Positions 1 through 62,407 of a DNA stretch of 64,000 nt are shown here, piece after piece. A model generated the notes under the pieces. That model made no database searches, was not told the origin of the DNA, and saw only the letters and a list, made by a program, of their open reading frames with translations. The position numbers were made by a program, and so were the translations under genes. Each line of letters begins with the position of its first letter. Position 1 is the stretch's first letter. This stretch comes from Piscicola geometra. Lineage: Eukaryota > Annelida > Clitellata > Hirudinida > Piscicolidae. The DNA lies in assembly GCA_943735955.1 (NCBI GenBank), contig OX030962.1, positions 72,501 to 136,500 of the forward strand, written 5' to 3'.

Positions 1-126
1 CGATCTAATAAATCATGGGTGGCCTAATGAGCCATTCGCAGCTTCACTGTTTGAAAGTTTGTGCTTAGACATGCATGGCTTAATCTTTGAGACAAGCATA
101 TAACTACTGGCAGGATCAACCAGGTA
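1..126 (-). rRNA. 18S small-subunit ribosomal RNA, 5' end only
   Basis: Read on the minus strand from 126 downward, the sequence starts TACCTGGTTGATCCTGCCAG and continues through AGTTATATGCTTGTCTCAAA and GATTAAGCCATGCATGTCTAAG, the near-universal start of eukaryotic 18S rRNA. A second conserved stretch, CTGCGAATGGCTCATTA, follows. The gene runs leftward out of the window, so only about 126 nt are visible. The gene would be transcribed by RNA polymerase I from right to left, making everything to its right 5' ETS, promoter and intergenic spacer. After CTCATTA the usual AATCAGTTATGG is replaced by GGCCACCCATGAT, so this copy is divergent or belongs to a fast-evolving lineage. Whether it is a functional copy cannot be judged from this fragment. 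Confidence 0.97.
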
Positions 127-137
127 ATACACGAGCA

Positions 138-177
138 AGAAGACTAGCGTCGCTGGCCTAAAGTCGACGAGTCTTCT
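138..177 (-). other. Hairpin in the 5' ETS next to the 18S start
   Basis: AGAAGACT (138-145) pairs with AGTCTTCT (170-177), and CGTCG (148-152) pairs with CGACG (165-169). A two-base bulge (146-147) and a 12-base loop (153-164) complete the 13-bp stem. In the transcript it ends 12 nt before the 18S 5' end, a position where pre-rRNA processing structures are common. Function is inferred. Confidence 0.6.
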
Positions 178-183
178 AGTCGC

Positions 184-225
184 CTTCGATAGTCGTCGCC
201 GCTCGTAAAAGCGGCTATATCGAAG
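184..225 (-). other. Two-step hairpin in the 5' ETS
   Basis: The outer stem CTTCGATA (184-191) pairs with TATCGAAG (218-225). Inside it, GCCGCT (198-203) pairs with AGCGGC (210-215) around a six-base loop. Both stems are perfect. It is probably a structural element of the pre-rRNA leader. Confidence 0.6.
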
Positions 226-436
226 ATAATTTATCAGCTTCGAATCTCTGCTTTACCGAGATCTAGTGATGATGATAGGAGATCACGCGCTTATTGCCGC
301 TAATAGACGTCCCCTTGAACGGTTAGCCTATCTTAAGCGAATAAGCAGCGCATCAGGCCAGTGGGAAATAACAGACGTTCGAGGTGCTTTTTGAGAAACT
401 CGTTTCGAGCTCAAAATATTTGATCGGTCAGTCTTT

Positions 437-459
437 TTATAATCGTTTACAGATTATAA
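437..459. other. Perfect 8-bp inverted repeat at the promoter/ETS border
   Basis: TTATAATC (437-444) pairs with GATTATAA (452-459) around a 7-base loop. Only the right arm lies in the conserved promoter block. The left arm is absent from the three spacer copies, which read AGAGTAAATTTACAG there. The right arm contains the 10-bp palindrome GATTATAATC, kept in all four copies. Confidence 0.5.
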
Positions 460-657
460 TCGCGTTTCAATGGGACCAAGCCGGTGAAGGCATGTTTTCT
501 CGCGCATTCGACCGGAGCGGTGAGGATCTCGGCCTAGCGTGGAATTTCATTGCCTGTGAAAAAAATTTTAAATAAAAATGTTAAAAAATCTTTCGTTCAA
601 TCATGAGACAAATCTCAAAATAAGTTCATTTGACAAGAGTTGCCATTTGAAACTTTA
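446..657 (-). promoter_or_regulatory. Candidate rRNA gene promoter (block A, gene-proximal copy)
   Basis: This 212-bp block upstream of the 5' ETS recurs in three 456-bp islands inside the satellite at 36829-37040, 43340-43551 and 45558-45769. The gene copy differs from them by roughly ten substitutions plus small length changes in A/T runs. It includes the conserved TTTACAGATTATAATCGCG at its gene-side end and the GC-rich core GCGCATTCGACCGGAGCGG. A promoter block reiterated in the intergenic spacer is the classic signature of Pol I gene and spacer promoters. No consensus can be relied on, because Pol I promoters diverge quickly; the call rests on position and duplication. An open frame across it (384-575) is incidental. 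Confidence 0.6.
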
Positions 658-821
658 TTATCTTGAGTTTCGAAGCATGCCTATACCTATAGAATATACA
701 AGAGTTAACTAGCGTGAGACATCGAGTTTCAATTTGTGTGAAACGAAAATAAGGCCGTATAAGAGACGATAAGATTGAAACAATTTTATTTTAACTGCTG
801 TCTATATCAACCAACACCTTT
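658..821. other. Unique spacer between block A and the satellite
   Basis: There is no gene here. Similarity to the spacer islands stops after GAAACTT near 656. At 765-781 the sequence GACGATAAGATTGAAAC matches GACGATAAGATCGAAAC of the islands (36712-36728 in the first) at 16 of 17 positions. A second piece of the island is therefore represented here, but on the other side of block A. Confidence 0.6.
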
Positions 822-1159
822 CATCGTCTTCATTGTCTTCATCGTCTTCATCTTCTTCATCGTCTTCACCGTCTTCATCGTCTTCATCGTCTTCATCGTC
901 TTCATCGTCTTCATCGTCTTCACTGTCTTCACCTTCTTCATCGTCTTCATCGTCTTCATCGTCTTCATCGTCTTCACCGTCTTCACCGTCTTCATCGTCT
1001 TCATCGTCTTCACCGTCTTCATCGTCTTCACCGTCTTCGTTCGTCTTCCCCGTCTTCATCGTCTTCACCGTCTTCATCTTTCGTCTTCACCGTCTTCATC
1101 GTCTTCATCGTCTTCACCGTCTTCATCGTCTTCATCGTCTTCACCGTCTTCATCGTCTT

Positions 1160-1540
1160 CATCGTCTTTATCATCTTCACCGTCTTCATCGTCTTCATCG
1201 TCTTCATCGTCTTCACCGTCTTCATCGTCTTCACCGTCTTCACCGTCTTCACCGTCTTCACCGTCTTCATCGTCTTCATCGTCTTCATCTTCTTCATCGT
1301 CTTCACCGTCTTCATCGTCTTCATCGTCTTCACCGTCTTCATCGTCTTCATCGTCTTTATCATCTTCACCGTCTTCATCGTCTTCATCGTCTTCATCGTC
1401 TTCACCGTCTTCATCGTCTTCACCGTCTTCACCGTCTTCACCGTCTTCACCGTCTTCACCGTCTTCACCGTCTTCATCGTCTTCATCGTCTTCATCGTCT
1501 TCACCGTCTTCATCGTCTTCATCGTCTTCACCGTCTTCAC
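1160..1540 (+). repeat. Tandem 189-bp duplication inside array 1
   Basis: The variant TTTATCATCTTCACC occurs at 1167 and again at 1356, 189 bp (21 units) apart, with the same order of CATCG and CACCG units before and after. This shows local duplication in blocks of whole units. Confidence 0.6.
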
Positions 1541-4500
1541 CGTCTTCATCGTCTTCATCGTCTTCATCGTCTTCATCGTCTTCATCGTCTTCATCGTCTT
1601 CACCGTCTTCAACGTCTTCACCGTCTTCACCGTCTTCATCGTCTTCACCGTCTTCATCGTCTTCATCGTCTTCATCGTTCGTCTTCATCGTTCGTCTTCA
1701 TCGTCTTCATCGTCTTCACCGTCTTCACCGTCTTCACCGTCTTCACCGTCTTCATCGTCTTCACCGTCTTCATCGTCTTCATCGTCTTCGTCGTCTTCAT
1801 CGTCTTCACCGTCTTCACCGTCTTCATCGTCTTCATCGTCTTCACCGTCTTCACCGTCTTCATCGTTTTCATCGTCTTCATTGTCTTCACCGTCTTCACC
1901 GTCTTCATCGTCTTCATCGTCTTCACCGTCTTCACCGTCTTCACCGTCTTCATCGTCTTCATCGTCTCCACCGTCTTCACCGTCTTCACCGTCTTCACCG
2001 TCTTCACCGTCTTCATCGTCTTAATCGTCTTCATCTTCTTCATCGTCTTCACCGTCTTCATCGCCTTCATCGTCTTCACCGTCTTCATCGTCTTCATCGT
2101 CTTTATCATCTTCACCGTCTTCATCGTCTTCATCGTCTTCATCGTCTTCACCGTCTTCATCGTCTTAACCGTCTTCACAGTCTTCACCGTCTTCACCGTC
2201 TTCACCGTCCTCACCGTCTTCACCGTCTTCATCGTCTTCATCGTCTTCATCGTCTTCATCGTCTTCATCGTCTTCACCGTCTTCATCGTCTTCACCGTCT
2301 TCATCGTCTTCTTCGTCTTCACCGTCTTCATCGTCTTCACCGTCTTCATCGTCTTCATCGTCTTCACCGTCTTCATCGTCTTCATCGTCTTCACCGTCTT
2401 CACCGTCTTCACCGTCTTCATCGTCTTCATCGTCTTCATCGTCTTCATCGTCTTCATCGTCTTCATCGTCTTCATCGTCTTCACCGTCTTCATCGTCTTC
2501 ACCGTCTTCACCGTCTTCACCGTCTTCACCGTCTTCATCGTCTTCATCGTCTTCATCGTCTTCATCGTCTTCATCGTCTTCATCGTCTTCATCGTCATCT
2601 TCGTCTTCATCGTCTTCACCGTCTTCATCGTCTTCATCGTCTTCACCGTCTTCATCGTCTTCACCGTCTTCATCGTCTTCACCATCTCCACGGTCTTCAT
2701 CGTCTTCATCGTCTTCATCGTCTTCACCGTCTTCACCGTCTTCACCGTCTTCATCGTCTTAAGCGTCTTCACCGTCTTCATCGTCTTCATCGTCTTCATC
2801 GTCTTCATCTTCTTGATCGTCTTCACCTTCTTCATCGTCTTCATCGTCTTCACCGTCTTCATCGTCTTCATCGTCTTCACCGTCTTCACCGTCTTCATCG
2901 TCTTCATCGTCTTCTTCGTCTTCATCGTCTTCATCGTCTTCACCGTCTTCATCGTCTTCATCGTCTTCATCGTCTTCATCGTCTTCATCGTCTTCACCGT
3001 CTTCATCGTCTTCATCGTCTTTATCATCTTCACCGTCTTTATCGTCTTCATCGTCTTCATCGTCTTCACCGTCTTCATCGTCTACACCGTCTTCACCGTC
3101 TTCACCGTCTTCACCGTCTTCACCGTCTTCACCGTATTCACCGTCTTCACCGTCTTCATCGTCTTCATCTTCTTCATCGTCTTCATCGTCTTCATCGTCT
3201 TCACCGTCTTCATCGTCTTCACCGTCTTCATCGTCTTCTTCGTCTTCACCGTCTTCATCGTCTTCACCGTCTTCATCGTCTTCATCGTCTTCACCGTCTT
3301 CATCGTCTTCATCGTCTTCACCGTCTTCATCGTCTTCATCGTCTTCATTGTCTTCATCGTCATCTTTGTCTTCATCGTCTTCACCGTCTTCACCGTCTTC
3401 ATCGTCTTCATCGTCTTCACCGTCTTCATCGTCTTCACCGTCTTCATCGTCTTCACCGTCTTCATCGTCTTCATCTTTCGTCTTCATCGTCTTCATCGTC
3501 TTCATCGTCTTGACCGTCTTCACCGTCTTCACCGTCTTCATCGTCTTCATCGTCTTCATCGTCTTTATCGTCTTCATCGTCTTCATCGTCTTCATCGTCT
3601 TCATCGTCTTCACCGTCTTCATCGTCTTCACCGTCTTCACGGTCTTCACCGTCTTCATCGTCTTCATCGTCTTCACCGTCTTCATCGTCTTCATCGTCTT
3701 CACCGTCTTCATCGTCTTCATCGTCTTCACCGTCTTCATCGTCTTCATCGTCTTCATTGTCTTCATCGTCATCTTCGTCTTCATCGTCTTCACCGTCTTC
3801 ACCGTCTTCATCGTCTTCATCGTCTTCACCGTCTTCATCGTCTTCATCGTCTTCATCTTCTTCATCGTCTTCACCGTCTTCATCGTCTTCATCGTCTTCA
3901 CCGTCTTCATCGTCTTCATCGTCTTTATCATCTTCACCGTCTTCATCGTCTTCATCGTCTTCATCGTCTTCACCGTCTTCATCGTCTTAACCGTCTTCAC
4001 AGTCTTCACCGTCTTCACCGTCTTCACCGTCTTCACCGTCTTCATCGTCTTCATCGTCTTCATCGTCTTCATCGTCTTCATCGTCTTCACCGTCTTCATC
4101 GTCTTCACCGTCTTCTTCGTCTTCACCGTCTTCATCGTCTTCACCGTCTTCATCGTCTTCACCTTCTTCAACGTCTTCATCGTCTTCACCGTCTTCATCG
4201 TCTTCATCGTCTTCACCGTCTTCACCGTCTTCATCGTCTTCATCGTCTTCATCGTCTTCATCGTCTTCATCGTCTTCACCGTCTTCATCGTCTTCACCGT
4301 CTTCACCGTCTTCACCGTCTTCATCGTCTTCATCGTCTTCATCGTGTTCACCGTCTTCACCGTCTTCACCGTCTTCACCGTCTTCACCGTCTTCATCGTC
4401 TTCCTCATCTTCATCGTCTTCACCGTCTTCATCGTCTTCACCGTCTTCACCGTCTTCATCGTCTTCATCGTCTTCATCGTCTTCACCGTCTTCATCGTCT

Positions 4501-7500
4501 TCACCGTCTTCATCGTCTTCATCGTCTTCACCGTCTTCACCGTCTTCATCGTCTTCATCGTCTTCTTCGTCTTCATTGTCTTCATCGTCTTCACCGTCTT
4601 CATCGTCTTCATCGTCTTCATCGTCTTCGTCGTCTTCATCGTCTTCATCGTCTTCACCGTCTTCACCGTCTTCACCGTCTTCATCGTCTTCATCGTCTTC
4701 ATCGTCTTCACCGTCTTCATCGTCTTCATCGTTCGTCTTCATCGTCTTCATCGTTCGTCTTCATCGTCTTCATCGTCTTCATCGTCTTCACCGTCTTCAT
4801 CGTCTTCTTCGTCTACACCGTCTTCATCGTTTTCACCGTCTTCATCGTCTTCATCGTCTTCACCGTCTATATCGTCTTCATCGTCTTCACCGTCTTCATC
4901 GTCTTCTTCGTCTTCACCGTCTTCATCGTCTTCACCGTCTTCATCGTCTTCATCGTCTTCGACGTCTATATCGTCTTCATCGTCTTCACCGTCTTCATCG
5001 TCTTCATCGTCTTCGTCGTTTTCATCGTCTTCATCGTCTTCATCGTCTTCACCGTCTTCATCGTCTTCACCGTCTTCATCGTCTTCTTCGTCTTCACCGT
5101 CTTCATCGTCTTCACCGTCTTCCTCGTCTTCATCGTCTTCATCGTCTTCATCGTCTCATCGTCTTCACCGTCTTCATCGTCTTCATCGTCTTCACCGTCT
5201 TCATCGTCTTCATCTTTCGTCTTCACCGTCTTCATCGTCTTCATCGTCTTCACCGTCTTCACCGTCTTCACCGTCTTCATCGTCTTCATCGTCTTCATCG
5301 TCTTCATCGTCTTCATCGTCTTCACCGTCTTCATCGTCTTCACCGTCTTCACCGTCTTCACCGTCTTCATCGTCTTCATCGTCTTCATCGTGTTCACCGT
5401 CTTCACCGTCTTCACCGTCTTCACCGTCTTCACCGTCTTCATCGTCTTCATCGTCTTCACCGTCTTCATCGTCTTCATCGTCTTCACCGTCTTCACCGTC
5501 TTCATCGTTTTCATCGTCTTCTTCGTCTTCATCGTCTTCATCGTCTTCACCGTCTTCATCGTCTTCATCGTCTTCATCGTCTTCGTCGTCTTCATCGTCT
5601 TCATCGTCTTCATCGTCTTCACCGTCTTCATCGTCTTCATCGTTCGTCTTCATCGTCTTCATCGTTCGTCTTCATCGTCTTCATCGTCTTCATCGTCTTC
5701 ACCGTCTTCATCGTCTTCACCGTCTTCATCGTCTTCATCGTCTTCACCGTCTATATCGTCTTCATCGTCTTCACCGTCTTCATCGTCTTCATCGTCTTCG
5801 TCGTCTTCATCGTCTTCATCGTCTTCACCGTCTTCACCGTCTTCACCGTCTTCATCGTCTTCATCGTCTTCATCGTCTTCATCGTCTTCATCGTCTTCAC
5901 CGTCTTCATCGTCTTCACCGTCTTCATCGTCTTCTTCGTCTTCACCGTCTTCATCGTCTTCACCGTCTTCCTCGTCTTCATCGTCTTCACCGTCTTCATC
6001 GTCTTCATCGTTTTCACCGTCTTCATCGTCTTCATCGTCTTCACCATCTTCATCGTCTTCATCTTTCGTCTTCACCGTCTTCATCGTCTTCATCGTCTTC
6101 ACCGTCTTCACCTTTTTCACCGTCTTCATCGTCTTCATCGTCTTCATCGTCTTCATCGTCTTCATCGTCTTCATCGTTTTCATCGTCTTCACCGTCTTCA
6201 TCGTCTTCACCGTCTTCACCGTCTTCACCGTCTTCACCGTCTTCATCGTCTTCATCGTGTTCACCGTCTTCACCGTCTTCACCGTCTTCACCGTCTTCAC
6301 CGTCTTCATCGTCTTCATCGTCTTCATCGTCTTCATCGTCTTTATCGTCATCTTCGTCTTCATCGTCTTCACCATCTTCACCGTCTTCATCGTCTTCATC
6401 GTCTTCACCGTCTTCATCGTCTTCACCGTCTTCATCGTCTTCATCGTCTTCACCGTCTTCATCGTCTTCATCGTCTTCATCGTCTTCTTCGTCTTCACCG
6501 TCTTCATCGTCTTCACCGTCTTCAACGTCTTCATCGTCTTCATCGTCTTCACCGTCTATATCGTCTTCATCGTCTTCACCGTCTTCATCGTCTTCATCGT
6601 CTTCACCGTCTTCATCGTCTTCACCGTCTTCATCGTCTTCTTCGTCTTCACCGTCTTCATCGTCTTCACCGTCTTCACCGTCTTCATCGTCTTCATCGTC
6701 TTCACCGTCTATATCGTCTTCATCGTCTTCACCGTCTTCATCGTCTTCATCGTTCGTCTTCACCATCTTCATCGTCTTCATCGTCTTCACCGTCTTCACC
6801 GTCCTCAGCGTCTTCATCGTCTTCATCGTCTTCATCGTCTTCACCGTCTTCATCGTCTTCACCGTTTTCACCGTCTTCACCGTCTTCATCGTTTTCATCG
6901 TCTTCATCGTCTTCACCGTCTTCACCGTCTTGACCGTCTTCACCGTCTTCACCGTCTTCATCGTCTTCATCGTCTTCATCGTCTTCATCGTCTTCATCGT
7001 CTTCCTCGTCTTCATCGTCTTCACCGTCTTCACCGTCTTCATCGTCTTCATCGTCTTCACCGTCTTCATCGTCTTCACCGTCTTCATCGTCTTCATCGTC
7101 TTCACCGTCTTGATCGTCTTCACCGTCTTCATCGTCTTCACCGTCTCCACGGTCTTCATCGTCTTCATCGTCTTCATCGTCTTCACCGTCTTCACCGTCT
7201 TCACCGTCTTCACCGTCTTCACCGTCTTCATCGTCTTCAGCGTCTTCACCGTCTTCATCGTCTTCATCGTCTTCATCGTCTTCATCTTCTTGATCGTCTT
7301 CACCTTCTTCATCGTCTTCATCGTCTTCACCGTCTTCATCGTCTTCACCGTCTTCACCGTCTTCATCGTCTTCATCGTCTTCACCGTCTATATCGTCTTC
7401 ATCGTCTTCACCGTCTTCATCGTCTTCACCGTCTTCATCGTCTTCACCGTTTTCACCGTCTTCACCGTCTTCATCGTTTTCATCGTCTTCATCGTCTTCA

Positions 7501-8819
7501 CCGTCTTCACCGTCTTGACCGTCTTCACCGTCTTCACCGTCTTCATCGTCTTCATCGTCTTCATCGTCTTCATCGTCTTCATCGTCTTCCTCGTCTTCAT
7601 CGTCTTCACCGTCTTCACCGTCTTCATCGTCTTCATCGTCTTCACCGTCTTCATCGTCTTCACCGTCTTCATCGTCTTCATCGTCTTCACCGTCTTCATC
7701 GTCTTCACCGTCTTCATCGTCTTCACCGTCTCCACGGTCTTCATCGTCTTCATCGTCTTCATCGTCTTCACCGTCTTCACCGTCTTCACCGTCTTCACCG
7801 TCTTCACCGTCTTCATCGTCTTCACCGTCTTCATCGTCTTCATCGTCTTCACCGTCTTCATCGTCTTCATCGTCTTCACCGTCTTCATCGTCTTCACCGT
7901 CTTCATCGTCTTCTTCGTCTTCACCGTCTTCATCGTCTTCACCGTCTTCACCGTCTTCACCGTCTTCACCGTCTTCATCGTCTTCACCGTCTTCATCGTT
8001 CGTCTTCATCGTCTTCATCGTTCGTCTTCATCGTTCGTCTTCATCGTCTTCATCGTCTTCATCGTTTTCATCGTCTTCATCGTCTTCACCGTCTTCATCG
8101 TCTTCTTCGTCTTCACCGTCTTCATCGTCTTCACCGTTTTCATCGTCTTCATCGTTCGTCTTCACCGTCTTCATCGTCTTCATCGTCTTCACCGTCTTCA
8201 CCGTCCTCAACGTCTTCATCGTCTTCATCGTCTTCATCGTCTTCATCGTCTTCATCGTCTTCACCGTCTTCATCGTCTTCACCGTTTTCACCGTCTTCAC
8301 CGTCTTCATCGTCTTCATCGTCTTCATCGTCTTCACCGTCTTCACCGTCTTCACCGTCTTCACCGTCTTCACCGTCTTCATCGTCTTCATTGTCTTCATC
8401 GTCTTCATCGACTTCATCGTCTTCTTCGTCTTCATCGTCTTCACCGTCTTCACCGTCTTCATCGTCTTCATCGTCTTCATCGTCTTCATCGTCTTCCTCG
8501 TCTTCATCGTCTTCACCGTCTTCACCGTCTTCATCGTCTTCATCGTCTTCATCGTCTTCACCGTCTTCACCGTCTTCACCGTCTTCACCGTCTTCATCGT
8601 CTTCATCGTCTTCATCGTCTTCACCGTCTTCATCGTCTTCATCGTTCGTCTTCATCGTTCGTCTTCATCGTTCGTCTTCATCGTTCGTCTTCATCGTTCG
8701 TCTTCATCGTCTTCATCGTCTTCATCGTTTTCATCGTCTTCATCGTCTTCACCGTCTTCATCGTCTTCTTCGTCTTCATCGTCTTCATCGTCTTCATCGT
8801 TTTCATCGTCTTCATCGTC

Positions 8820-20460: not shown

Positions 20461-20464
20461 TCAT

Positions 20465-36300: not shown

Positions 36301-36584
36301 GTCTTCATCTTCTTCATCGTCTTCACCGTCTTCATCGTCTTTATCGTCTTCACCGTCTTCATCGTCTTCATCGTCTTCACCGTCTTCACCGCCTTCATCG
36401 TCTTCATCGTCTTCATCGTCTTCATCGTCTTCATCGTCTTCACCGTCTTCACCGTCTTCATCGTCTTCATCGTCTTCACCGTCTTCATCGTCTTCATCGT
36501 CTTCATCGTCTTCACCGTCTTCATCGTCTTCACCGTCTTCATCGTCTTCATCGTCTTCACCGTCTTCATCGTCTTCATCGTCTT

Positions 36585-37040
36585 GCAACCATACTTCCCC
36601 CGGAATCCAAAATCTTTGGTTTCCCGGAGACTGCCCGCGGGGTCATATCTACCCTTTTTTCTTAACTAAGGGGGGTGAATAAAGCAAAAAAAAATTTAAT
36701 CTCGATAAATAGACGATAAGATCGAAACGAGTTGTTAATACGCTAAGTGAGCGGTCATCGAGGGAGATAGGAGATGCGACGGCGGATGCCGTTGAAAAAC
36801 TTGAAAGTCTTAGAAAATTAAGAGTAAATTTACAGATTATAATCGCGTTTCAATGGGACCCAAGCCGATGAAGGCATGTTTTCTCGCGCATTCGACCGGA
36901 GCGGCGAGGATCTCGGCCTAGCGTGGAATTTCATTGCCAGTGAAAAAAATTTAAAAATGACATTTTTAAAAAATCGTTCGTTCAATCATGAGACAAATTT
37001 CAAAATAAGTTCATTTGACAAGAGTTGCCATTTGAAACTT
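36585..37040 (-). promoter_or_regulatory. Candidate rDNA spacer promoter, copy 1 (456-bp island)
   Basis: This non-satellite island interrupts the array. It is one of three equal-length (456 bp), almost identical islands. Its right part (36829-37040) is block A, the sequence found upstream of the 18S gene at 446-657 in the same orientation. Going left, i.e. downstream if transcribed like the 18S gene, come an AT-rich middle with GACGATAAGATCGAAAC (36712-36728) and a GC-rich end. That end holds a CCGG...CCGG hairpin (36600-36627), the palindrome CCCGCGGG, and CTTTTTTC before a G-run. The duplication is seen directly; promoter activity is inferred. Open frames crossing it, such as the one starting at 36876, merely join satellite frames. 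Confidence 0.65.
36600..36627. other. GC-capped hairpin in spacer island 1
   Basis: CCGG and CCAAA on the left pair with TTTGG and CCGG on the right around ATC, with small internal loops. It is conserved in islands 2 and 3 at the same internal position. It lies downstream of block A in the rRNA direction, where a terminator or processing element could be, but nothing shows which. Confidence 0.4.
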
Positions 37041-43000: not shown

Positions 43001-43095
43001 GTCTTCATCGTCTTCATCGTCTTCACCGTCTTCATCGTCTTCACCGTCTTCATCGTCTTCATCGTCTTCACCGTCTTCATCGTCTTCATCGTCTT
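37041..43095 (+). repeat. Satellite array 2, 6.1 kb
   Basis: The same nine-base satellite in the same orientation as array 1. It is rich in the landmark CTTATGCGTC, always preceded by a 13-base unit and a few CACCG/CATCG units, and in CATCATC and CATTGTC variants. Much of it is made of 1,196-bp higher-order copies. No gene is seen. Confidence 0.98.
38340..42646 (+). repeat. Higher-order repeats of 1,196 bp marked by CTTATGCGTC
   Basis: The ATG of CTTATGCGTC falls at 38344, 38780, 39976, 41172, 41450 and 42646. Three of the spacings are exactly 1,196 bp (38780-39976, 39976-41172, 41450-42646). An extra 278-bp partial copy sits between 41172 and 41450. The stretches 39814-41125 and 41288-42599 give identical translations in two frames at an offset of 1,474 bp, so they are close to identical DNA. 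The first copy differs slightly, for example GTATTCACC near 39073. Confidence 0.8.
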
Positions 43096-43551
43096 GCAAC
43101 CATACTTCCCCCGGAATCCAAAATCTTTGGTTTCCCGGAGACTGCCCGCGGGGTCATATCTACCCTTTTTTCTTAACTAAGGGGGGTGAATAAAGCAAAA
43201 AAAAATTTAATCTCGATAAATAGACGCTAAGATCGAAACGAGTTGTTAATACGCTAAGTGAGCGGTCATCGAGGGAGATAGGAGATGCGACGGCGGATGC
43301 CGTTGAAAAACTTGAAAGTCTTAGAAAATTAAGAGTAAATTTACAGATTATAATCGCGTTTCAATGGGACCCAAGCCGATGAAGGCATGTTTTCTCGCGC
43401 ATTCGACCGGAGCGGCGAGGATCTCGGCCTAGCGTGGAATTTCATTGCCAGTGAAAAAATTTTTTAAATGACATTTTTAAAAAATCGTTCGTTCAATCAT
43501 GAGACAAATTTCAAAATAAATTCATTTGACAAGAGTTGCCATTTGAAACTT
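43096..43551 (-). promoter_or_regulatory. Candidate rDNA spacer promoter, copy 2 (456-bp island)
   Basis: Same length and same junctions as copy 1: it starts GCAACCATACTTCC directly after a satellite unit and ends GAAACTT directly before one. Block A is at 43340-43551. The few differences seen are GACGCTAAG instead of GACGATAAG, a changed A/T run after CAGTG, and AAAATAAATTC instead of AAAATAAGTTC. It begins 6,511 bp after copy 1. Such near identity inside a fast-changing array suggests recent duplication or concerted evolution. Promoter function is inferred. Confidence 0.65.
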
Positions 43552-45313: not shown

Positions 45314-45769
45314 GCAACCATACTTCCCCCGGAATCCAAAATCTTTGGTTTCCCGGAGACTGCCCGCGGGGTCATATCTACCCTTTTTTCTTAACTAAGG
45401 GGGGTGAATAAAGCAAAAAAAAATTTAATCTCGATAAATAGACGATAAGATCGAAACGAGTTGTTAATACGCTAAGTGAGCGGTCATCGAGGGAGATAGG
45501 AGATGCGACGGCGGATGCCGTTGAAAAACTTGAAAGTCTTAGAAAATTAAGAGTAAATTTACAGATTATAATCGCGTTTCAATGGGACCCAAGCCGATGA
45601 AGGCATGTTTTCTCGCGCATTCGACCGGAGCGGCGAGGATCTCGGCCTAGCGTGGAATTTCATTGCCAGTGAAAAAAATTTTTAAATGACATTTTTAAAA
45701 AATCGTTCGTTCAATCATGAGACAAATTTCAAAATAAGTTCATTTGACAAGAGTTGCCATTTGAAACTT
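45314..45769 (-). promoter_or_regulatory. Candidate rDNA spacer promoter, copy 3 (456-bp island)
   Basis: Third island, again 456 bp, beginning 2,218 bp after copy 2, with block A at 45558-45769. It matches copy 1 at GACGATAAG and AAAATAAGTTC and differs from it in the A/T run after CAGTG. It is the most distal island from the 18S gene. Arrays 4 and 5 beyond it have no further island. Promoter function is inferred from its similarity to the block upstream of the 18S gene. Confidence 0.65.
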
Positions 45770-48700: not shown

Positions 48701-49907
48701 TTCACCATCTTCACCGTCTTCACCGTCTTCATCGTCTTCATCGTCTTCATCGTCTTCATCGTCTTCATCGTCTTCACCGTCTTGATCGTCTTCACCGTCT
48801 TCACCGTCTTCATCGTCTTCATCGTCTTCATCGTCTTCATCGTCTTCATCGTCTTCATCGTCTTTATCGTCTTCATCGTCTTCATCGTCTTCACCATCTT
48901 CACCGTCTTCACCGTCTTCATCGTCTTCATCATCTTCATCGTCTTCATCGTCTTCATCGTCTTCACCATCTTCACCGTCTTCATCGTCTTCATCGTCTTC
49001 ATCGTCTTCATCGTCTTCACCGTCTTCATCGTCTTTATCGTCTTCATCGTCTTCATCGTCTTCACCATCTTCACCGTCTTCACCGTCTTTACCGTCTTCA
49101 CCGTCTTCATCGTCTTCACCGTCTTCACCGTCTTCATCGTCTTCACCGTCTTCATCGTCTTCACCGTCTTTATCGTCTTCATCGTCTTCATCGTCTTCAT
49201 CGTCTTCACCGTCTTCATCGTCTTCATCGTCTTCACCGTCTTCATCGTCTTCATCGTCTTCATCGTCTTCATCGTCTTCATCTTCTTCATCGTCTTCACC
49301 GTCTTCATCGTCTTTATCGTTTTCACGGTCTTCATCGTCTTCATCGTCTTCACCGTCTTCACCGTCTTCATCGTCTTCATCGTCTTCATCGTCTTCATCG
49401 TCTTCATCGTCTTCATCGTCTTTATCGTCTTCATCGTCTTCATCGTCTTCACCATCTTCACCGTCTTCACCGTCTTCATCGTCTTTATCGTCTTCACGGT
49501 CTTCATCGTCTTCATCGTCTTCACCGTCTTCATCGTCTTCATCGTCTTCATCGTCTTCATCGTCTTCATCGTCTTCACCGTCTTCATCGTCTTTATCGTC
49601 TTCATCGTCTTCATCGTCTTCACCATCTTCACCGTCTTCACCGTCTTCATCGTCTTCATCATCTTCATCGTCTTCATCGTCTTCACCATCTTCACCGTCT
49701 TCATCGTCTTCATCGTCTTCACCGTCTTCATCGTCTTCATCGTCTTCATCGTCTTCACCGTCTTCATCGTCTTCATCGTCTTCACCGTCTTCACCGTCTT
49801 CATCGTCTTCATCGTCTTCTTCGTCTTCATCGTATTCATCGTTTTCACCGTCTTCATCGTCTTCATCGTCTTCATCGTCTTCATCGTCTTCACCATCTTT
49901 ATCGTCT

Positions 49908-51962: not shown

Positions 51963-54900
51963 CGTTCGTCTTCACCGTCTTCACCGTCTTCATCGTCTTC
52001 ACCGTCTTTATCGTCTTCATCGTCTTCACCGTCTTTACCGTCTTCACCGTCTTCATCGTCTTCACCGTCTTCACCGTCTTCATCGTCTTCACCGTCTTCA
52101 TCGTCTTCATCGTCTTCACCGTCTTCATCGTCTTCACCGTCTTTACCGTCTTCACCGTCTTCATCGTCTTCACCGTCTTCACCGTCTTCATCGTCTTCAC
52201 CGTCTTCATCGTCTTCACCGTCTTTATCGTCTTCATCGTCTTCATCGTCTTCATCGTCTTCACCGTCTTCATCGTCTTCATCGTCTTCACCGTCTTCATC
52301 GTCTTCATCGTCTTCATCGTCTTCATCGTCTTCATCTTCTTCATCGTCTTCACCGTCTTCATCGTCTTTATCGTCTTCACGGTCTTCATCGTCTTCATCG
52401 TCTTCACCGTCTTCACCGTCTTCATCGTCTTCATCGTCTTCATCGTCTTCATCGTCTTCATCGTCTTTATCGTCTTCATCGTCTTCATCGTCTTCACCAT
52501 CTTCACCGTCTTCACCGTCTTCATCGTCTTCATCATCTTCATCGTCTTCATCGTCTTCATCGTCTTCACCATCTTCACCGTCTTCATCGTCTTCATCGTC
52601 TTCATCGTCTTCATCGTCTTCACCGTCTTCATCGTCTTTATCGTCTTCATCGTCTTCACCGTCTTCATCGTCTTCACCGTCTTCACCGTCTTCACCGTCT
52701 TCATCGTCTTCATCGTCTTCTTCGTCTTCATCGTCTTCATCGTTTTCACCGTCTTCATCGTCTTCATCGTCTTCATCGTCTTCATCGTCTTCACCATCTT
52801 TATCGTCTTCATCGTTCGTCTTCACCGTCTTCATCGTCTTCACCGTCTTCATCGTCTTCATCGTCTTCACCGTCTTCATCGTCTTCACCGTCTTTACCGT
52901 CTTCACCGTCTTCATCGTCTTCATCGTCTTCACCGTCTTCATCGTCTTCACCGTCTTTACCGTCTTCACCGTCTTCATCGTCTTCACCGTCTTCACCGTC
53001 TTCATCGTCTTCACCGTCTTCATCGTCTTCACCGTCTTTATCGTCTTCATCGTCTTCATCGTCTTCATCGTCTTCACCGTCTTCATCGTCTTCATCGTCT
53101 TCATCGTCTTCATCGTCTTCACCGTCTTCATCGTCTTCACCGTCTTCACCGTCTTCATCGTCTTCATCGTCTTCATCGTCTTCACCGTCTTCACCGTCTT
53201 CACCGTCTTCATCATCTTCATCGTCTTCACCGTCTTCATCGTCTTCACCGTCTTCACCGTCTTCATCGTCTTCATCGTCTTCATCGTCTTCACCGTCTTC
53301 ACCGTCTTCATCGTCTTCATCGTTTTCACCGTCTTCATCGTCTTCATCGTCTTCATCGTCTTCATCGTCTTCACCATCTTTATCGTCTTCATCGTTCGTC
53401 TTCACCGTCTTCATCGTCTTCACCGTCTTCATCGTCTTCATCGTCTTCACCGTCTTCATCGTCTTCACCGTCTTTACCGTCTTCACCGTCTTCATCGTCT
53501 TCATCGTCTTCACCGTCTTCATCGTCTTCACCGTCTTTACCGTCTTCACCGTCTTCATCGTCTTCACCGTCTTCACCGTCTTTATCGTCTTCATCGTCTT
53601 CATCGTCTTCATCGTCTTCACCGTCTTCATCGTCTTCATCGTCTTCATCGTCTTCATCGTCTTCATCGTCTTCACCGTCTTCATCGTCTTCACCGTCTTC
53701 ACCGTCTTCATCGTCTTCATCGTCTTCATCGTCTTCACCGTCTTCACCGTCTTCACCGTCTTCATCATCTTCATCGTCTTCACCGTCTTCATCGTCTTCA
53801 CCGTCTTCACCGTCTTCATCGTCTTCATCGTCTTCATCGTCTTCACCGTCTTCACCGTCTTCATCGTCTTCATCGTCTTCATCGTCTTCATCGTCTTCAT
53901 CGTCTTCATCGTCTTCACCATCTTTATCGTCTTCATCGTTCGTCTTCACCGTCTTCATCGTCTTCACCGTCTTCATCGTCTTCATCGTCTTCACCGTCTT
54001 CATCGTCTTCACCGTCTTTACCGTCTTCACCGTCTTCATCGTCTTCATCGTCTTCACCGTCTTCATCGTCTTCACCGTCTTTACCGTCTTCACCGTCTTC
54101 ATCGTCTTCACCGTCTTCACCGTCTTCATCGTCTTCACCGTCTTCATCGTCTTCATCGTCTTCACCGTCTTCATCGTCTTCACCGTCTTTACCGTCTTCA
54201 CCGTCTTCATCGTCTTCACCGTCTTCACCGTCTTCATCGTCTTCACCGTCTTCATCGTCTTCACCGTCTTTATCGTCTTCATCGTCTTCATCGTCTTCAT
54301 CGTCTTCACCGTCTTCATCGTCTTCATCGTCTTCACCGTCTTCATCGTCTTCATCGTCTTCATCGTCTTCATCGTCTTCATCTTCTTCATCGTCTTCACC
54401 GTCTTCATCGTCTTTATCGTCTTCACGGTCTTCATCGTCTTCATCGTCTTCACCGTCTTCATCGTCTTCATCGTCTTCATCGTCTTCATCGTCTTCATCT
54501 TCTTCATCGTCTTCACCGTCTTCATCGTCTTTATCGTCTTCACCGTCTTTATCGTCTTCATCGTCTTCATCGTCTTCATCGTCTTCACCGTCTTCATCGT
54601 CTTCATCGTCTTCACCGTCTTCATCGTCTTCATCGTCTTCATCGTCTTCATCGTCTTCATCTTCTTCATCGTCTTCATCGTCTTCATCGTCTTCATCGTC
54701 TTTATCGTCTTCATCGTCTTCATCGTCTTCACCATCTTCACCGTCTTCACCGTCTTCATCGTCTTCATCATCTTCATCGTCTTCATCGTCTTCATCGTCT
54801 TCACCATCTTCACCGTCTTCATCGTCTTCATCGTCTTCATCGTCTTCATCGTCTTCACCGTCTTCATCGTCTTTATCGTCTTCATCGTCTTCACCGTCTT

Positions 54901-55460
54901 CATCGTCTTCACCGTCTTCACCGTCTTCACCGTCTTCACCATCTTTATCGTCTTCATCGTTCGTCTTCACCGTCTTCATCGTCTTCACCGTCTTCATCGT
55001 CTTCATCGTCTTCACCGTCTTTACCGTCTTCACCGTCTTCACCGTCTTCATCGTCTTCATCGTCTTCATCGTCTTCATCATCTTCATCGTCTTCATCGAT
55101 CGTCTTCATCGTCTTCATCGTCTTCATCGTCTTCACCGTCTTCATCGTCTTCACCGTCTTCATCGTCTTCATCGTCTTCACCGTCTTTACCGTCTTCACC
55201 GTCTTCATCGTCTTCATCGTCTTCACCGTCTTCATCGTCTTCACCGTCTTCACCGTCTTCATCGTTCGTCTTCATCGTCTTCATCGTCTTCATCGTCTTC
55301 ATCGTCTTCATCGTCTTCATCGTCTTCATCGTCTTCACCGTCTTCATCGTCTTCACCGTCTTCATCGTCTTCATCGTCTTCACCGTCTTTACCGTCTTCA
55401 CCGTCTTCATCGTCTTCATCGTCTTCACCGTCTTCATCGTTTTCACCGTCTTCACCGTCT

Positions 55461-57423
55461 TCATCGTTCGTCTTCATCGTCTTCATCGTCTTCACCGTCT
55501 TCACCGTCTTCATCGTCTTCACCGTCTTCATCGTCTTCACCGTCTTCACCGTATCCACCGTCTTCATCGTCTTCACCGTCTTCACCGTCTTCATCGTCTT
55601 CACCGTCTTCATCGTCTTCACCGTCTTCATCGTCTTCATTGTCTTCACCGTCTTCATCGTCTTCATCGTCTTCATCGTCTTCATCGTCTTCACCGTCTTC
55701 ATCGTCTTTATCGTCTTCATCGTCTTCACCGTCTTCATCGTCTTCACCGTCTTCACCGTCTTCACCATCTTTATCGTCTTCATCGTTCGTCTTCACCGTC
55801 TTCATCGTCTTCACCGTCTTCATCGTCTTCATCGTCTTCACCGTCTTTACCGTCTTCACCGTCTTCACCGTCTTCATCGTCTTCATCGTCTTCATCGTTC
55901 GTCTTCATCGTCTTCATCGTCTTCACCGTCTTCACCGTCTTCATCGTCTTCACCGTCTTCATCGTCTTCACCGTCTTCATCGTCTTCATCGTCTTCATCG
56001 TCTTCACCGTCTTCACCGTCTTCATCGTCTTCATCGTCTTCATCGTCTTCATCGTCTTCATCGTCTTCATCGTCTTCACCGTCTTTACCGTCTTCACCGT
56101 CTTCATCGTCTTCATCGTCTTCACCGTCTTCATCGTCTTCACCGTCTTCATCGTCTTCATCGTCTTCACCGTCTTCATCGTCTTCACCGTCTTCATCGTC
56201 TTCATCGTCTTCACCGTCTTTACCGTCTTCACCGTCTTCACCGTCTTCATCGTCTTCATCGTCTTCATCGTCTTCATCGTCTTCATCGTCTTCATCGTCT
56301 TCACCGTCTTCATCGTCTTCACCGTCTTCATCGTCTTCATCGTCTTCACCGTCTTTACCGTCTTCACCGTCTTCATCGTCTTCATCGTCTTCACCGTCTT
56401 CATCGTCTTCACCGTCTTCACCGTCTTCATCGTTCGTCTTCATCGTCTTCATCGTCTTCATCGTCTTCATCGTCTTCATCGTCTTCATCGTCTTCATCGT
56501 CTTCACCGTCTTCATCGTCTTCACCGTCTTCATCGTCTTCATCGTCTTCACCGTCTTTACCGTCTTCACCGTCTTCATCGTCTTCATCGTCTTCACCGTC
56601 TTCATCGTTTTCACCGTCTTCACCGTCTTCATCGTTCGTCTTCATCGTCTTCATCGTCTTCACCGTCTTCACCGTCTTCATCGTCTTCACCGTCTTCATC
56701 GTCTTCACCGTCTTCACCGTATCCACCGTCTTCATCGTCTTCACCGTCTTCACCGTCTTCATCGTCTTCACCGTCTTCATCGTCTTCATCGTCTTCATCG
56801 TCTTCACCGTCTTCACCGTCTTCATCGTCTTCATCGTCTTCATCGTCTTCATCGTCTTCATCGTCTTCACCGTCTTTACCGTCTTCACCGTCTTCATCGT
56901 CTTCATCGTCTTCACCGTCTTCATCGTCTTCACCGTCTTCATCGTCTTCATTGTCTTCACCGTCTTCATCGTCTTCACCGTCTTCATCGTCTTCATCGTC
57001 TTCACCGTCTTTACCGTCTTCACCGTCTTCACCGTCTTCATCGTCTTCATCGTCTTCATCGTCTTCATCGTCTTCATCGTCTTCATCGTCTTCACCGTCT
57101 TCATCGTCTTCACCGTCTTCATCGTCTTCATCGTCTTCACCGTCTTTACCGTCTTCACCGTCTTCATCGTCTTCATCGTCTTCACCGTCTTCATCGTCTT
57201 CACCGTCTTCACCGTCTTCATCGTTCGTCTTCATCGTCTTCATCGTCTTCATCGTCTTCATCGTCTTCATCGTCTTCATCGTCTTCATCGTCTTCACCGT
57301 CTTCATCGTCTTCACCGTCTTCATCGTCTTCATCGTCTTCACCGTCTTTACCGTCTTCACCGTCTTCATCGTCTTCATCGTCTTCACCGTCTTCATCGTC
57401 TTCACCGTCTTCACCGTCTTCAT
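55461..57423 (+). repeat. Higher-order duplication at 1,168-bp offset in array 4
   Basis: The rare variant GTATCCACCG occurs at 55551 and 56719, 1,168 bp apart, in the same context. The blocks starting at 55461 and 56629 share variant order. Confidence 0.6.
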
Positions 57424-58533
57424 CGTTCGTTTTCATCGTCTTCATCGTCTTCACCGTCTTCACCGTCTTCATCGTCTTCACCGTCTTCATCGTCTTCACC
57501 GTCTTCATCGTCTTCATCGTCTTCATCGTCTTCACCGTCTTCATCGTCTTCACCGTCTTCATCGTCTTCACCGTCTTCATCGTCTTCATCGTCTTCATCG
57601 TCTTCACCGTCTTCATCGTCTTCATCGTCTTCATCGTCTTCATCGTCTTCACCGTCTTCATCGTCTTCACCGTCTTCACCGTCTTCATCGTCTTCATCGT
57701 TTTCATCGTCTTCACCGTCTTCACCGTCTTCACCGTCTTCACCGTCTTCATCGTCTTCACCGTCTTCACCGTCTTCACCGTCTTCACCGTCTTCATCGTC
57801 TTCATCGTCTTCATCGTCTTCATCGTCTTCATCGTCTTTACCGTCTTCACCGTCTTCATCGTCTTCATCGTCTTCACCGTCTTCATCGTCTTCACCGTCT
57901 TCACCGTCTTCATCGTTCGTCTTCATCGTCTTCATCGTCTTCATCGTCTTCATCGTCTTCATCGTCTTCATCGTCTTCATCGTCTTCACCGTCTTCATCG
58001 TCTTCACCGTCTTCATCGTCTTCATCGTCTTCACCGTCTTTACCGTCTTCACCGTCTTCATCGTCTTCATCGTCTTCACCGTCTTCATCGTCTTCACCGT
58101 CTTCACCGTCTTCATCGTTCGTTTTCATCGTCTTCATCGTCTTCACCGTCTTCACCGTCTTCATCGTCTTCACCGTCTTCATCGTCTTCACCGTCTTCAT
58201 CGTCTTCATCGTCTTCATCGTCTTCACCGTCTTCATCGTCTTCACCGTCTTCATCGTCTTCACCGTCTTCATCGTCTTCATCGTCTTCATCGTCTTCACC
58301 GTCTTCATCGTCTTCATCGTCTTCATCGTCTTCATCGTCTTCACCGTCTTCATCGTCTTCACCGTCTTCACCGTCTTCATCGTCTTCATCGTTTTCATCG
58401 TCTTCACCGTCTTCACCGTCTTCACCGTCTTCACCGTCTTCATCGTCTTCACCGTCTTCACCGTCTTCACCGTCTTCACCGTCTTCATCGTCTTCATCGT
58501 CTTCATCGTCTTCATCGTCTTCATCGTCTTCAC

Positions 58534-58553
58534 CGTCTTCATCGATGAAGACG
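58534..58553. other. Head-to-head inversion point of the satellite
   Basis: CGTCTTCATC is followed directly by GATGAAGACG, a perfect 20-bp palindrome centred between 58543 and 58544. To the left the unit reads CATCGTCTT; to the right it reads GATGAAGAC. Beyond ten bases each side the two arms have different variant orders, so this is not a simple mirror image. Confidence 0.95.
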
Positions 58554-61500
58554 AACGATGAAGACGATGAAGACGGTGAAGACGATGAAGATGATGAAGA
58601 CGGTGAAGACGGTGAAGACGATGAAGACGATGAAGACGATGAAGACGATGAAGACGATGAAGACGGTGAAGACGGTGAAGACGGTGAAGACGGTGAAGAC
58701 GGTGAAGACGGTGAAGACGGTGAAGACGATGAAGACGATGAAGACGATGAAGACGATAAAGACGGTGAAGACGGTGAAGACGGTGAAGACGGTGAAGACG
58801 GTGAAGACGGTGAAGACGATGAAGACGGTGAAGACGGTGAAGACGATGAAGACGATGAAGACGATGAAGACGATGAAGACGAACGATGAAGACGAACGAT
58901 GAAGACGAACGATGAAGACGAACGATGAAGACGATGAAGACGGTGAAGACGATGAAGACGGCTAAGACGGTGAAGACGATGAAGACGGTGAAGACGGTGA
59001 AGACGGTGAAGACGATGAAGACGATGAAGACGAACGATGAAGACGATGAAGACGGTGAAGACGATGAAGACGCCTAAGACGGTGAAGACTATGAAGACGG
59101 TGAAGACGATGAAGACGGTGAAGACGGTGAAGACGATGAAGACGATGAAGAAGGTGGAGACGGTGAAGACGGTGAAGACGATGAAGACGATGAAGACGAT
59201 GAAGACGATGAAGACAGTAAAGACGGTGAAGACGGTGAAGACGGTGAAGACGGTGAAGACGGTGAAGACGATGAAGACGATGAAGACGATGAAGACGATG
59301 AAGACGGTGAAGACGGTGAAGACGGTGAAGACGGTGAAGACGGTGAAGACGGTGAAGACGATGAAGACGGTGAAGACGGTGAAGACGGTGAAGACGGTGA
59401 AGACGATGAAGACGATGAAGAAGGTGAAGACGGTGAAGACGGTGAAAACGGTGAAGACGATGAAGACGGTGAAGACGATGAAGACGATGAAGACGATGAA
59501 GACGGTGAAGACGGTGAAGACAGTGAAGACGGTGAAGACGGTGAAGACGGTGAAGACGGTGAAGACGATGAAGACGATGAAGACGATGAAGACGATGAAG
59601 ACGGTGAAGACGGTGAAGACGGTGAAGACGGTGAAGACGATGAAGACGATGAAGACGATGAAGACGGTGAAGACGGTGAAGACGATGAAGACGATGAAGA
59701 CGATGAAGACGATGAAGACGATGAAGACGATGAAGACGATGAAGACGATGAAGACGATGAAGACGATGAAGACGATGAAGACGATGAAGACGGTGAAGAC
59801 GAACGATGAAGACGATGAAGACGGTGAAGACGATGAAGACGGTGGAAACGGTGAAGACGATGAAGACGGTGAAGACGGTGAAGACGATGAAGACGATGAA
59901 GACGAACGATGAAGACGAACGATGAAGACGATGAAGACGGTGAACACGATGAAGACTGTGAAGACGGTGAAGACTATGAAGACGACGAAGACAGTGAAGA
60001 CGGTGAAGACAGTGAAGACGGTGAAGACGGTGAAGACGATGAAGACGATGAAGACGATGAAGACAGTGAAGACGGTGAAGACGGTGAAGACGGTGAAGAC
60101 GGTGAAGACGGTGAAGACGGTGAAGACGGTGAAGACGGTGAAGACAGTGAAGACGGTGAAGACGGTGAAGACGATGAAGACGATGAAGACGAACGATGAA
60201 GACGAACGATGAAGACGATGAAGACGAACGATGAAGACGATGAAGACGATGAAGACGGTGAAGACGGTGAAGACGGTGAAGACGAACGATGAAGACGATG
60301 AAGACGATGAAGACGGTGAAGACAGTGAAGACGATGAAGACGAACGATGAAGACGATGAAGACGGTGAAGACGATGAAGACGGTGAAGACGGTGAAGACG
60401 ATGAAGACGATGAAGACGATGAAGACGATGAAGAAGGTGAAGACGGTGAAAACGGTGAAGACGATGAAGACGGTGAAGACGATGAAGACGATGAAGACGA
60501 ACGATGAAGACGATGAAGACGATGAAGACGGTGAAGACGGTGAAGACGGTGAAGACGAACGATGAAGACGATGAAGACGATGAAGACGGTGAAGACAGTG
60601 AAGACGATGAAGACGAACGATGAAGACGATGAAGACGGTGAAGACGATGAAGACGGTGAAGACGGTGAAGACGATGAAGACGATGAAGACGATGAAGACG
60701 ATGAAGACGATGAAGAAGGTGAAGACGGTGAAAACGGTGAAGACGATGAAGACGGTGAAGACGATGAAGACGATGAAGACGATGAAGACGGTGAAGACGG
60801 TGAAGACAGTGAAGACGGTGAAGACGGTGAAGACGGTGAAGACGGTGAAGACGATGAAGACGATGAAGACGATGAAGACGATGAAGACGGTGAAGACGGT
60901 GAAGACGGTGAAGACGGTGAAGACGATGAAGACGATGAAGACGATGAAGACGGTGAAGACGATGAAGACGATGAAGACGATGAAGACGATGAAGACGATG
61001 AAGACGATGAAGACGATGAAGACGATGAAGACGGTGAAGACGAACGATGAAGACGATGAAGACGGTGAAGACGATGAAGACGGTGGAGACGGTGAAGACG
61101 ATGAAGACGGTGAAGACGGTGAAGACGATGAAGACGATGAAGACGAACGATGAAGACGATGAAGACGGTGAAGACGATGAAGACGGTGAAGACGGTGAAG
61201 ACTATGAAGACGTCGAAGACAGTGAAGACGGTGAAGACGGTGAAGACGGTGAAGGCGGTGAAGACGGTGAAGACGATGAAGACGATGAAGACGATGAAGA
61301 CAGTGAAGACGATGAAGACGGTGAAGACGGTGAAGACGGTGAAGACGGTGAAGACGGTGAAGACGGTGAAGACGGTGAAGACGGTGAAGACAGTGAAGAC
61401 GGTGAAGACGGTGAAGACGATGAAGACGATGAAGACGAACGATGAAGACGAACGATGAAGACGATGAAGACGAACGATGAAAACGATGAAGACGATGAAG

Positions 61501-62407
61501 ACGGTGAAGACAGTGAAGACGATGAAGACGGTGAAGACGGTGAAGACGGTGAAGACGGTGAAGACGGTGAAGACGGTGAAGACGATGAAGACGGTGGAGA
61601 CGGTGAAGACGATGAAGACGGTGAAGACGGTGAAGACGATGAAGACGATGAAGACGAACGATGAAGACGATGAAGACGGTGAAGACGATGAAGACGGTGA
61701 AAACGGTGAAGACGATGAAGACGATGAAGACGATGAAGACGATGAAGACGATGAAGACGATGAAGAAGGTGAAGACGGTGAAGACGGTGAAGACGGTGAA
61801 GACGATGAAGACGGTGAAGACGATGAAGACGATGAAGACGATGAAGACGATGAAGACGGTGAAGACGGTGAAGACAGTAAAGACGGTGAAGACGGTGAAG
61901 ACGGTGAAGACGGTGAAGACGATGAAGACGATGAAGACGATGAAGACGATGAAGACGGTGAAGACGGTGAAGACGGTGAAGACGGTGAAGACGGTGAAGA
62001 CGGTGAAGACGGTGAAGACGGTGAAGACGGTGAAGACGGTGAAGACGATGAAGACGATGAAGACGGTGAAGACGGTGAAGACGGTGAAGACGATGAAGAC
62101 GATGAACACGATGAACACGATGAAGACGAACGATGAAGACGAACGATGAAGACGATGAAGACGAACGATGAAGACGATGAAGACGAACGATGAAGACGAT
62201 GAAGACGATGAAGACGGTGAAGACAGTGAAGACGATGAAGACGGTGAAGACGGTGAAGACGGTGAAGACGGTGAAGACGGTGAAGACGGTGAAGACGGTG
62301 AAGACGGTGAAGACGGTGAAGACGATGAAGACGATGAAGACGATGAAGACGGTGAATAGGGTGAAGACGATGAAGACGGTGAAGACGATGAAGACGGTGA
62401 AGACGAT
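58544..62407 (-). repeat. Satellite array 5, inverted, 3.9 kb
   Basis: The same nine-base satellite in reverse orientation (GATGAAGAC and GGTGAAGAC on the plus strand). It differs in composition from array 4. It has longer runs of the GGTGAAGAC (CACCG) form, AGTGAAGAC and GAAGAAGGTG variants, and clusters of the 13-base unit in reverse (AAGACGAACGATG). It contains no spacer island. Its right end, at 62407, is the outer edge of the whole satellite domain. No gene is seen. Confidence 0.97.
60289..60834 (-). repeat. 273-bp tandem duplication in array 5
   Basis: The stretch beginning at 60289 is repeated from 60562, an offset of 273 bp. It includes the AGTGAAGAC unit, a 13-base unit, GAAGAAGGTG and GGTGAAAACGG. 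The second copy has one extra GATGAAGAC unit. Confidence 0.7.

Follow-up and report, generated by a model that had tools for sequence, protein, structure and literature searches.

A block of composite satellite that carries ribosomal RNA gene promoters, lying beside a single, rearranged rDNA copy, is probably the best account of the 64,000-nucleotide stretch of Piscicola geometra DNA analysed here (the window; positions 72,501 to 136,500 of contig OX030962.1, C8 below). Mitochondrial COX1 from this genome is 97% identical to that of Codonobdella sp., a member of the fish-leech family. The initial annotation placed an 18S 5' end next to more than 60 kb of a nonanucleotide repeat, with a 0.7-kb stretch of external transcribed spacer (ETS) and promoter, and here it holds, Rfam and TRF agreeing on the arrangement. 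The features are as follows.

1 to 126, minus strand: 18S rRNA 5' end, cut by the window edge (Rfam RF01960, SSU_rRNA_eukarya, model positions 1-127, 115.6 bits, E 1.6e-30)
127 to 445, minus strand: 5' ETS, putative extent, set by where the duplicated promoter segment ends
446 to 664, minus strand: rDNA promoter region, so named from where it lies; duplicates of this segment occur in the islands
665 to 795, minus strand: promoter-upstream segment in common with the C1 copy, the homology to which ends at 795
796 to 819, no strand given: rDNA-satellite junction segment, common to satellite-linked copies elsewhere (junction matches)
820 to 58544, plus strand: nonanucleotide satellite (TTCATCGTC / TTCACCGTC)n, containing 13-bp variants and exact duplications of as much as 1767 bp (TRF, period 9, 6473.8 copies; unit counts)
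36585 to 37037, minus strand: island 1, an internal 18S fragment, an intergenic spacer (IGS) repeat piece and a promoter piece (alignment)
36582 to 36627, minus strand: short stretch of internal 18S, at one edge of island 1 (local alignment)
43096 to 43548, minus strand: island 2, make-up as island 1 (comparison)
45314 to 45766, minus strand: island 3, make-up as island 1 (comparison)
58545 to 62407, minus strand: inverted block of the same satellite, with a head-to-head turn at ATCGAT (TRF, reverse complement at 58555-62407, period 9, 436.6 copies)
62408 to 64000, no strand given: flank toward the chromosome interior, containing a retroelement-like reading frame (63451-63918)

The satellite array (820-62407) contains 3240 units of TTCATCGTC and 1857 of TTCACCGTC, switches strand at 58544/58545 and is broken up by short variant stretches and by three islands of 453 bp each, which begin at 36585, 43096 and 45314. 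The satellite can also be written as (CATCGTCTT)n. Long open reading frames within the array (up to 11105 aa) were rejected as genes, because the nine-base unit has no stops and so opens frames by itself. The frame at 63451-63918 in the flank carries what we take to be an aspartic-protease motif, and a Pfam search with it gave no match.

The islands, described earlier as promoter-like, do contain the rDNA promoter region, all three matching window 446-664 at about 93%. The 18S fragment of island 1 aligns with a score of 39 to a stretch that we take to be human 18S, the maximum of 200 shuffles being 14; Rfam models did not detect this fragment, and the nine matches obtained in island 1 at a permissive threshold, none of them rRNA and all far below gathering scores, were set aside as chance. 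The three promoter duplicates lie upstream of the gene promoter and point the same way as the gene, with short repeats between. Xenopus rDNA has duplicated spacer promoters with enhancer repeats between them, and the rDNA spacers of Drosophila reportedly contain duplicated promoters; the leech resembles both in having multiple copies of the promoter ahead of the gene's own and differs in that its copies sit in nonanucleotide satellite on many chromosomes, by truncated 18S in the copies sampled. By this analogy, the islands could function as spacer promoters for Pol I, with the nonanucleotide as their enhancer repeats, but the C1 stretch that was read is without such an arrangement and the islands' own satellite junction has three matches genome-wide, all on C8, which makes such a system quite unlikely.

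The passage from rDNA to satellite is itself a repeated structure. Window 82-820 is conserved in other copies at 97-99%, and of the 41 matches that extend beyond window 664, 39 cross the junction as far as 820 and the other two (C1 and C57) end at 795; the window is thus of the satellite-linked junction type. The distance from the 18S 5' end upstream to the satellite is 693 bp, and a promoter recognised as that of an rRNA gene by position and duplication adjoins the satellite block. A false join of rDNA and satellite might be suspected from the gaps in the assembly (254 contigs in 69 scaffolds) and from the stretch left of the window, C8:65001-72500, which reads N. However, the passage from 18S through ETS to satellite lies within contiguous sequence, and a misjoin is unlikely because the 21-base ETS-satellite junction has 220 genome matches with at most two mismatches, the 100 listed being exact, against 0 for a reversed-pattern control. 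The N block C8:65001-72500, like those of loci L004, L005 and L010, has an edge on a multiple of 500, which suggests withheld sequence and not an assembly gap. An assembly artefact is therefore highly improbable as an account of the window.

Across the genome, the satellite is dispersed and totals about 3.2 Mb, or about 1.9% of the genome, with 196,887 matches to a 26-mer of it against 3,754 in the window (about 52 times as many). The junction of the 18S fragment gave 194 matches with at most two mismatches (at least 100 exact; control 0), a number that may include plain 18S, admissible under the two-mismatch limit. Inserts bearing rDNA occur on at least 11 of the 17 chromosome-scale contigs, with satellite beside them in the loci of C1, C2, C4, C6, C8, C11, C13, C14 and C16 and with C7 and C12 placed by junction patterns only; units homologous to rDNA hence lie within satellite on several chromosomes. 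Lengths of the inserts fall on a ladder, 611 + 746k bp, to which 60 of 74 pairs conform within 20 bp (about 5.5% expected if uniform; base and step were picked after the distances were seen); unequal exchange acting on duplicated promoters would be expected to produce such a ladder. The satellite has one orientation relative to the insert in all of loci L001-L020 and L031-L039 except L015 and L039, both on C13; this was judged on fetched loci only, because the junction pattern itself fixes orientation. An origin for the nonanucleotide was sought in the C1 stretch read and none was found; in the composite satellite, rDNA is confined to the inserts. The rRNA genes are outside readable sequence.

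Promoters with a different, AT-rich upstream context number 12, ten on C1 (16.27-16.60 Mb) and two on C57, of which one C1 copy, L040, was read as sequence and the other 11 were placed by a 32-mer. The order in L040, whose match to the window spans 37-795 only, is 533-bp repeats, 1.2 kb of AT-rich DNA, promoter and 18S, and its 5,067 readable bases of 10,000 contain 0 forward and 0 reverse nonanucleotide units; the N runs of this locus lie off the 500-base grid and are possibly assembly gaps. A search of the whole genome for 5.8S found none (0 of 1; 4493 candidates, 39 scored), which fits rRNA genes that read N and fits the limited scoring as well. The initial annotation took the nonanucleotide to be the ribosomal intergenic spacer of the organism. 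That the satellite is the true spacer of working rDNA units draws on its lying, in the window, directly against a promoter and an intact 18S 5' end, and on the adjoining 7.5-kb N block, about the length of an 18S-28S unit. Satellite-spaced active units may also exist among the C1 genes, which are largely outside readable sequence. However, the DNA upstream of the AT-rich-context promoter that was read on C1 is of conventional type, the satellite-linked copies sampled elsewhere have a truncated or internally deleted 18S, and the 62-kb satellite block gives way to other DNA at 62407. Together with the 12 AT-rich contexts and the excess of satellite genome-wide, these observations leave the true-spacer reading very unlikely, and the idea that other rDNA units have the same spacer was not borne out. 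Two outcomes had been named that would tell against the original claim: normal short spacers were found in part, in the one stretch read, and misassembly was not.

The surroundings of the rDNA copy in the window bear on a further possibility, namely that the left end of chromosome 8 carries an rDNA array and that the satellite flanks this array proximally, in a position comparable to that of the junction DNA of human acrocentric chromosomes. C8 indeed starts with 65 kb of rDNA IGS repeats, which cover 65,000 of 65,000 bases of C8:1-65000, all in plus orientation, followed by the N block and then by satellite toward the chromosome interior. Against this possibility, the 65-kb stretch contains no second gene and no further N block; the IGS repeats on the 28S side of the window are inverted relative to the repeats at 10 of 10 C1 promoters; and the 32-mer of the AT-rich promoter context has no match on C8. 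DNA at the edge of a nucleolus organizer (NOR) is, overall, an unlikely explanation.

The 18S end of the window has no mismatch to L040 over the 90 comparable bases and none over 126 bases to a C6 copy; the identity to L040 would fit a live gene, a recent conversion or a founder copy. Among 22 distinct promoter copies, L040 alone differs at 10 columns and the window alone at 7, column 293 unites the window and L040 against the 20 others, and the tree leaves the window unplaced. Ten promoter columns that had seemed to place the window in the satellite lineage were dropped, the lineage sites being uninformative, and promoter sequence alone does not fix the lineage of the window.

The composite satellite probably represented by the window may have arisen when a piece of rDNA comprising promoter, 5' ETS, 18S start, an IGS-repeat piece and an internal 18S piece was joined to the nonanucleotide satellite; the fused unit would then have multiplied and reached many chromosomes. 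Unequal exchange between promoter duplicates would have made inserts longer or shorter in 746-bp steps, and in the window a satellite block would have come to lie next to the promoter of a single rearranged rDNA copy with the satellite-linked junction, a copy that probably includes a whole rRNA gene in the adjoining N stretch. Most likely, the block persists as a satellite and has no required role in rRNA synthesis. Pol I may initiate from the captive promoters. That the inserts are live Pol I sites, which would transcribe the satellite into purine-rich (GAAGACGAT)n repeat RNA and bring many chromosomes to the nucleolus, is unlikely; if true, they would amount to a 'shadow' nucleolus organizer, dispersed and consisting largely of satellite. 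The case would exemplify the capture of a ribosomal promoter by a simple satellite and its subsequent multiplication, with the 746-bp ladder preserving the products of unequal exchange. Moreover, conventional rDNA promoters and a large satellite-borne set coexist in one genome, so that the behaviour of Pol I promoters remote from rRNA genes (firing, silencing or competition for Pol I factors) can be put to the test.

Clusters of rDNA spacer sequence outside the NOR occur in the newt, and there as in the leech such sequence is dispersed without intact rRNA genes; the leech differs in that most of each block is simple satellite. A literature search found no report of the nonanucleotide satellite, and the main texts of the P. 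geometra genome note and of that on Branchellion lobata (PMC12326168) make no mention of repeat, rDNA, satellite, ribosomal or telomer. A tomato satellite derives from the rDNA spacer; recombination and segmental duplication enlarged and homogenised it, with loss of rRNA coding sequence (PMC2679016). Both it and the leech case involve an rDNA-related satellite expanded by recombination; the tomato repeat is itself an IGS subrepeat, whereas the bulk in the leech is a nine-base repeat for which no rDNA origin was found, the rDNA part being the promoter-bearing insert. The As51 satellite of characiform fishes occurs in association with 45S rDNA and has dispersed to heterochromatin (PMC13170303), and it shares with the leech satellite both the 45S rDNA association and the dispersal. 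As51-like repeats lie within 45S spacers in all species examined there, whereas the one conventional spacer stretch read in the leech is without satellite.

Ribosomal sequence and satellite meet at the start of the window in the order given here, with positions in window coordinates.

1-126, minus strand: 18S rRNA 5' end, reverse complement, from a profile match
Next after 126, about 320 bases: putative 5' ETS
446-664: rDNA promoter region, named from position and duplication, without a mapped start site
To 795: promoter-upstream segment
24 bases between the upstream segment and the satellite start at 820: junction segment
820-62407: nonanucleotide array, with one strand switch at 58544/58545

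Within the window, TTCATCGTC (3240) and TTCACCGTC (1857) are the dominant variants of the nonanucleotide, and exact duplications reaching 1767 bp suggest that unequal exchange has recurred inside the array. Three islands of 453 bp break the array. The first carries, in gene orientation, a promoter piece at about 93% to window 446-664 and part of the 533-bp IGS repeat (88-94% in alignments). At its edge lie some 46 bases that presumably derive from internal 18S; they align to a human 18S stretch with a score of 39, while shuffled sequence scored 14 at most. The other two islands differ little from the first, and all three have an additional deletion that joins satellite at the position corresponding to window 664, a join with three matches genome-wide, all on C8. 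The strand switch is a head-to-head satellite turn at an ATCGAT palindrome, resembling the product of a fold-back or template-switch inversion.

The window corresponds to C8:72501-136500 of an assembly of 171.02 Mb in 66 contigs, whose mitochondrial COX1 shares 97% identity with that of Codonobdella sp. Across this assembly, a nonanucleotide 26-mer has 196,887 matches, 3,754 of them inside the window, and its reversed control has none. Scaling the 26-mer counts by the 61.6-kb array gives a satellite total of about 3.2 Mb, or 1.9% of the assembly; repeat counts are lower bounds, and assembled array lengths are possibly collapsed or expanded. At up to two mismatches the ETS-satellite junction is matched 220 times and the 18S-fragment-satellite junction 194 times, with no control matches and with all of the 100 listed for each exact. 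Because a pattern search detects its own breakpoint only, breakpoint sharing was judged from the 41 matches that extend past window 664, of which 39 reach 820 through the junction segment and two (C1, C57) end at 795. The rRNA genes of the genome are unreadable.

Of the chromosome-scale contigs, which number 17 according to the Piscicola geometra genome note (wrPisGeom1.1, PMC11134150), at least 11 carry satellite-linked inserts. Satellite adjoins inserts in fetched loci on C1, C2, C4, C6, C8, C11, C13, C14 and C16; C7 and C12 are known from junction patterns alone, and C22 from the genome-wide matches to the rDNA stretch of the window. Many junction sites lie close to contig ends, with internal examples at C1:6.1 Mb and C4:10.2-11.1 Mb. 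On C1 the first listed 26-mer match is at 10.4 kb, and the initial 1.5 kb is CCCTAA repeats. The outer 1-1.5 kb at five of the eight contig ends read is filled by one AT-rich repeat of about 20 bp (L044, L046, L047, L048 and L049, on C2, C13, C11, C7 and C4); among the remaining ends, the C1 start has the CCCTAA repeats, the C8 end has TTAGGG repeats and the C6 end has neither.

Insert lengths form a ladder. Among the 100 exact 18S-fragment junctions listed, the 75 on C2, C4, C6 and C7 were used, as the list of ETS junctions ends on C7; each was paired with the nearest downstream ETS junction on the same strand, and with one left unpaired this gave 74 pairs. Sixty pairs deviate by no more than 20 bp from 611 + 746k (k=0, 20; k=1, 21; k=2, 14; k=3, 2; k=4, 5 and 6, one each) and 14 fall outside; a uniform spread would place about 5.5% within these limits, base and step having been picked after the distances were seen. 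The step is the spacing between tandem promoter matches, and in the C2 locus read the 746-bp unit consists of promoter, ETS and an internally deleted 18S. Such a ladder is the result expected from unequal exchange between the two promoters that a long insert carries, in which losses would yield short islands and gains tandem promoters.

Most likely the block behaves like a satellite, in which slippage and unequal exchange expand and contract the array and the promoter inserts are carried along. A single satellite orientation is found in 27 of 29 fetched satellite-linked loci (L001-L020 and L031-L039, overlapping places counted), and in the aligned loci a transcript from the upstream insert promoter would be purine-rich; purine-rich satellite transcripts from insert promoters are predicted. 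In the sequence, no evidence of the block serving rRNA synthesis was seen. Two overlapping loci, L015 and L039 (C13:1.565-1.575 Mb), are alone among the fetched satellite loci in sharing the window's mix of satellite orientations, each having 20 reverse units.

One spacer stretch of conventional type was read on C1. The AT-rich sequence past the equivalent of window 795 in L040 (C1:16270001-16280000; 4,933 of 10,000 bases N), searched as a 32-mer with up to three mismatches, occurs at 12 places, all exact: ten at C1:16.27-16.60 Mb and two on C57. C1 is the probable nucleolus organizer. L040, the one AT-rich-context promoter locus read as sequence, runs from 533-bp repeats through about 1.2 kb of AT-rich DNA to promoter, ETS and 18S, and its readable part contains no satellite unit. 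It also holds two facing rDNA promoters that are separated by an N run of 2,700 bases and mirror each other over 1,929 bp with 99.7% identity, reflecting either a scaffold join or a real inverted rDNA arrangement.

At all ten C1 promoters the upstream IGS repeats keep one orientation relative to the promoter (seven plus with minus repeats, three minus with plus repeats), and in a tandem rDNA array the repeats past the 28S end should have the C1-type orientation. On C8, IGS repeat in a single orientation fills positions 1-65000 throughout, all 65,000 bases matching at 90% or better, followed by N at 65001-72500, which is presumed to be withheld sequence and to contain the rRNA gene. The C8 repeats are oriented opposite to the expectation for a tandem array, which sets the C8 copy apart from ordinary tandem units, provided that the N block is one through-running gene. 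N-block edges lie on a 500-base grid on C8, C11 (end 500000) and C14 (starts 182501 and 190001), which favours withheld sequence; those in L040 do not follow this grid, and some N runs may thus be assembly gaps. Beyond the window, C8:145743-146474 (L029:9243-9974) holds an IS1595-like transposase reading frame (Pfam PF12762, E 9.4e-07), its best named relative being from Clonorchis sinensis (62% identity, 75% of query), and C8:149700-155400 (L030:3200-8900) is a tandem array of 27-bp period with long His/Pro/Thr-rich reading frames.

The promoter comparison covered 34 full copies, 22 of them distinct, with overlapping loci counted and the window entered twice. Among the distinct copies, ten columns differ in L040 alone and seven in the window alone, and at column 293 the two agree and differ from the remaining 20. 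The window has no settled place in the tree, where three pairs are the only well-supported groupings; as promoter sequence does not decide, it is the shared junction that places the window with the satellite family. The C8 copy may thus stand near the insert founder, as an intact gene beside which the satellite would first have lain; in keeping with this, over 90 bases the window 18S end is identical to that of L040.
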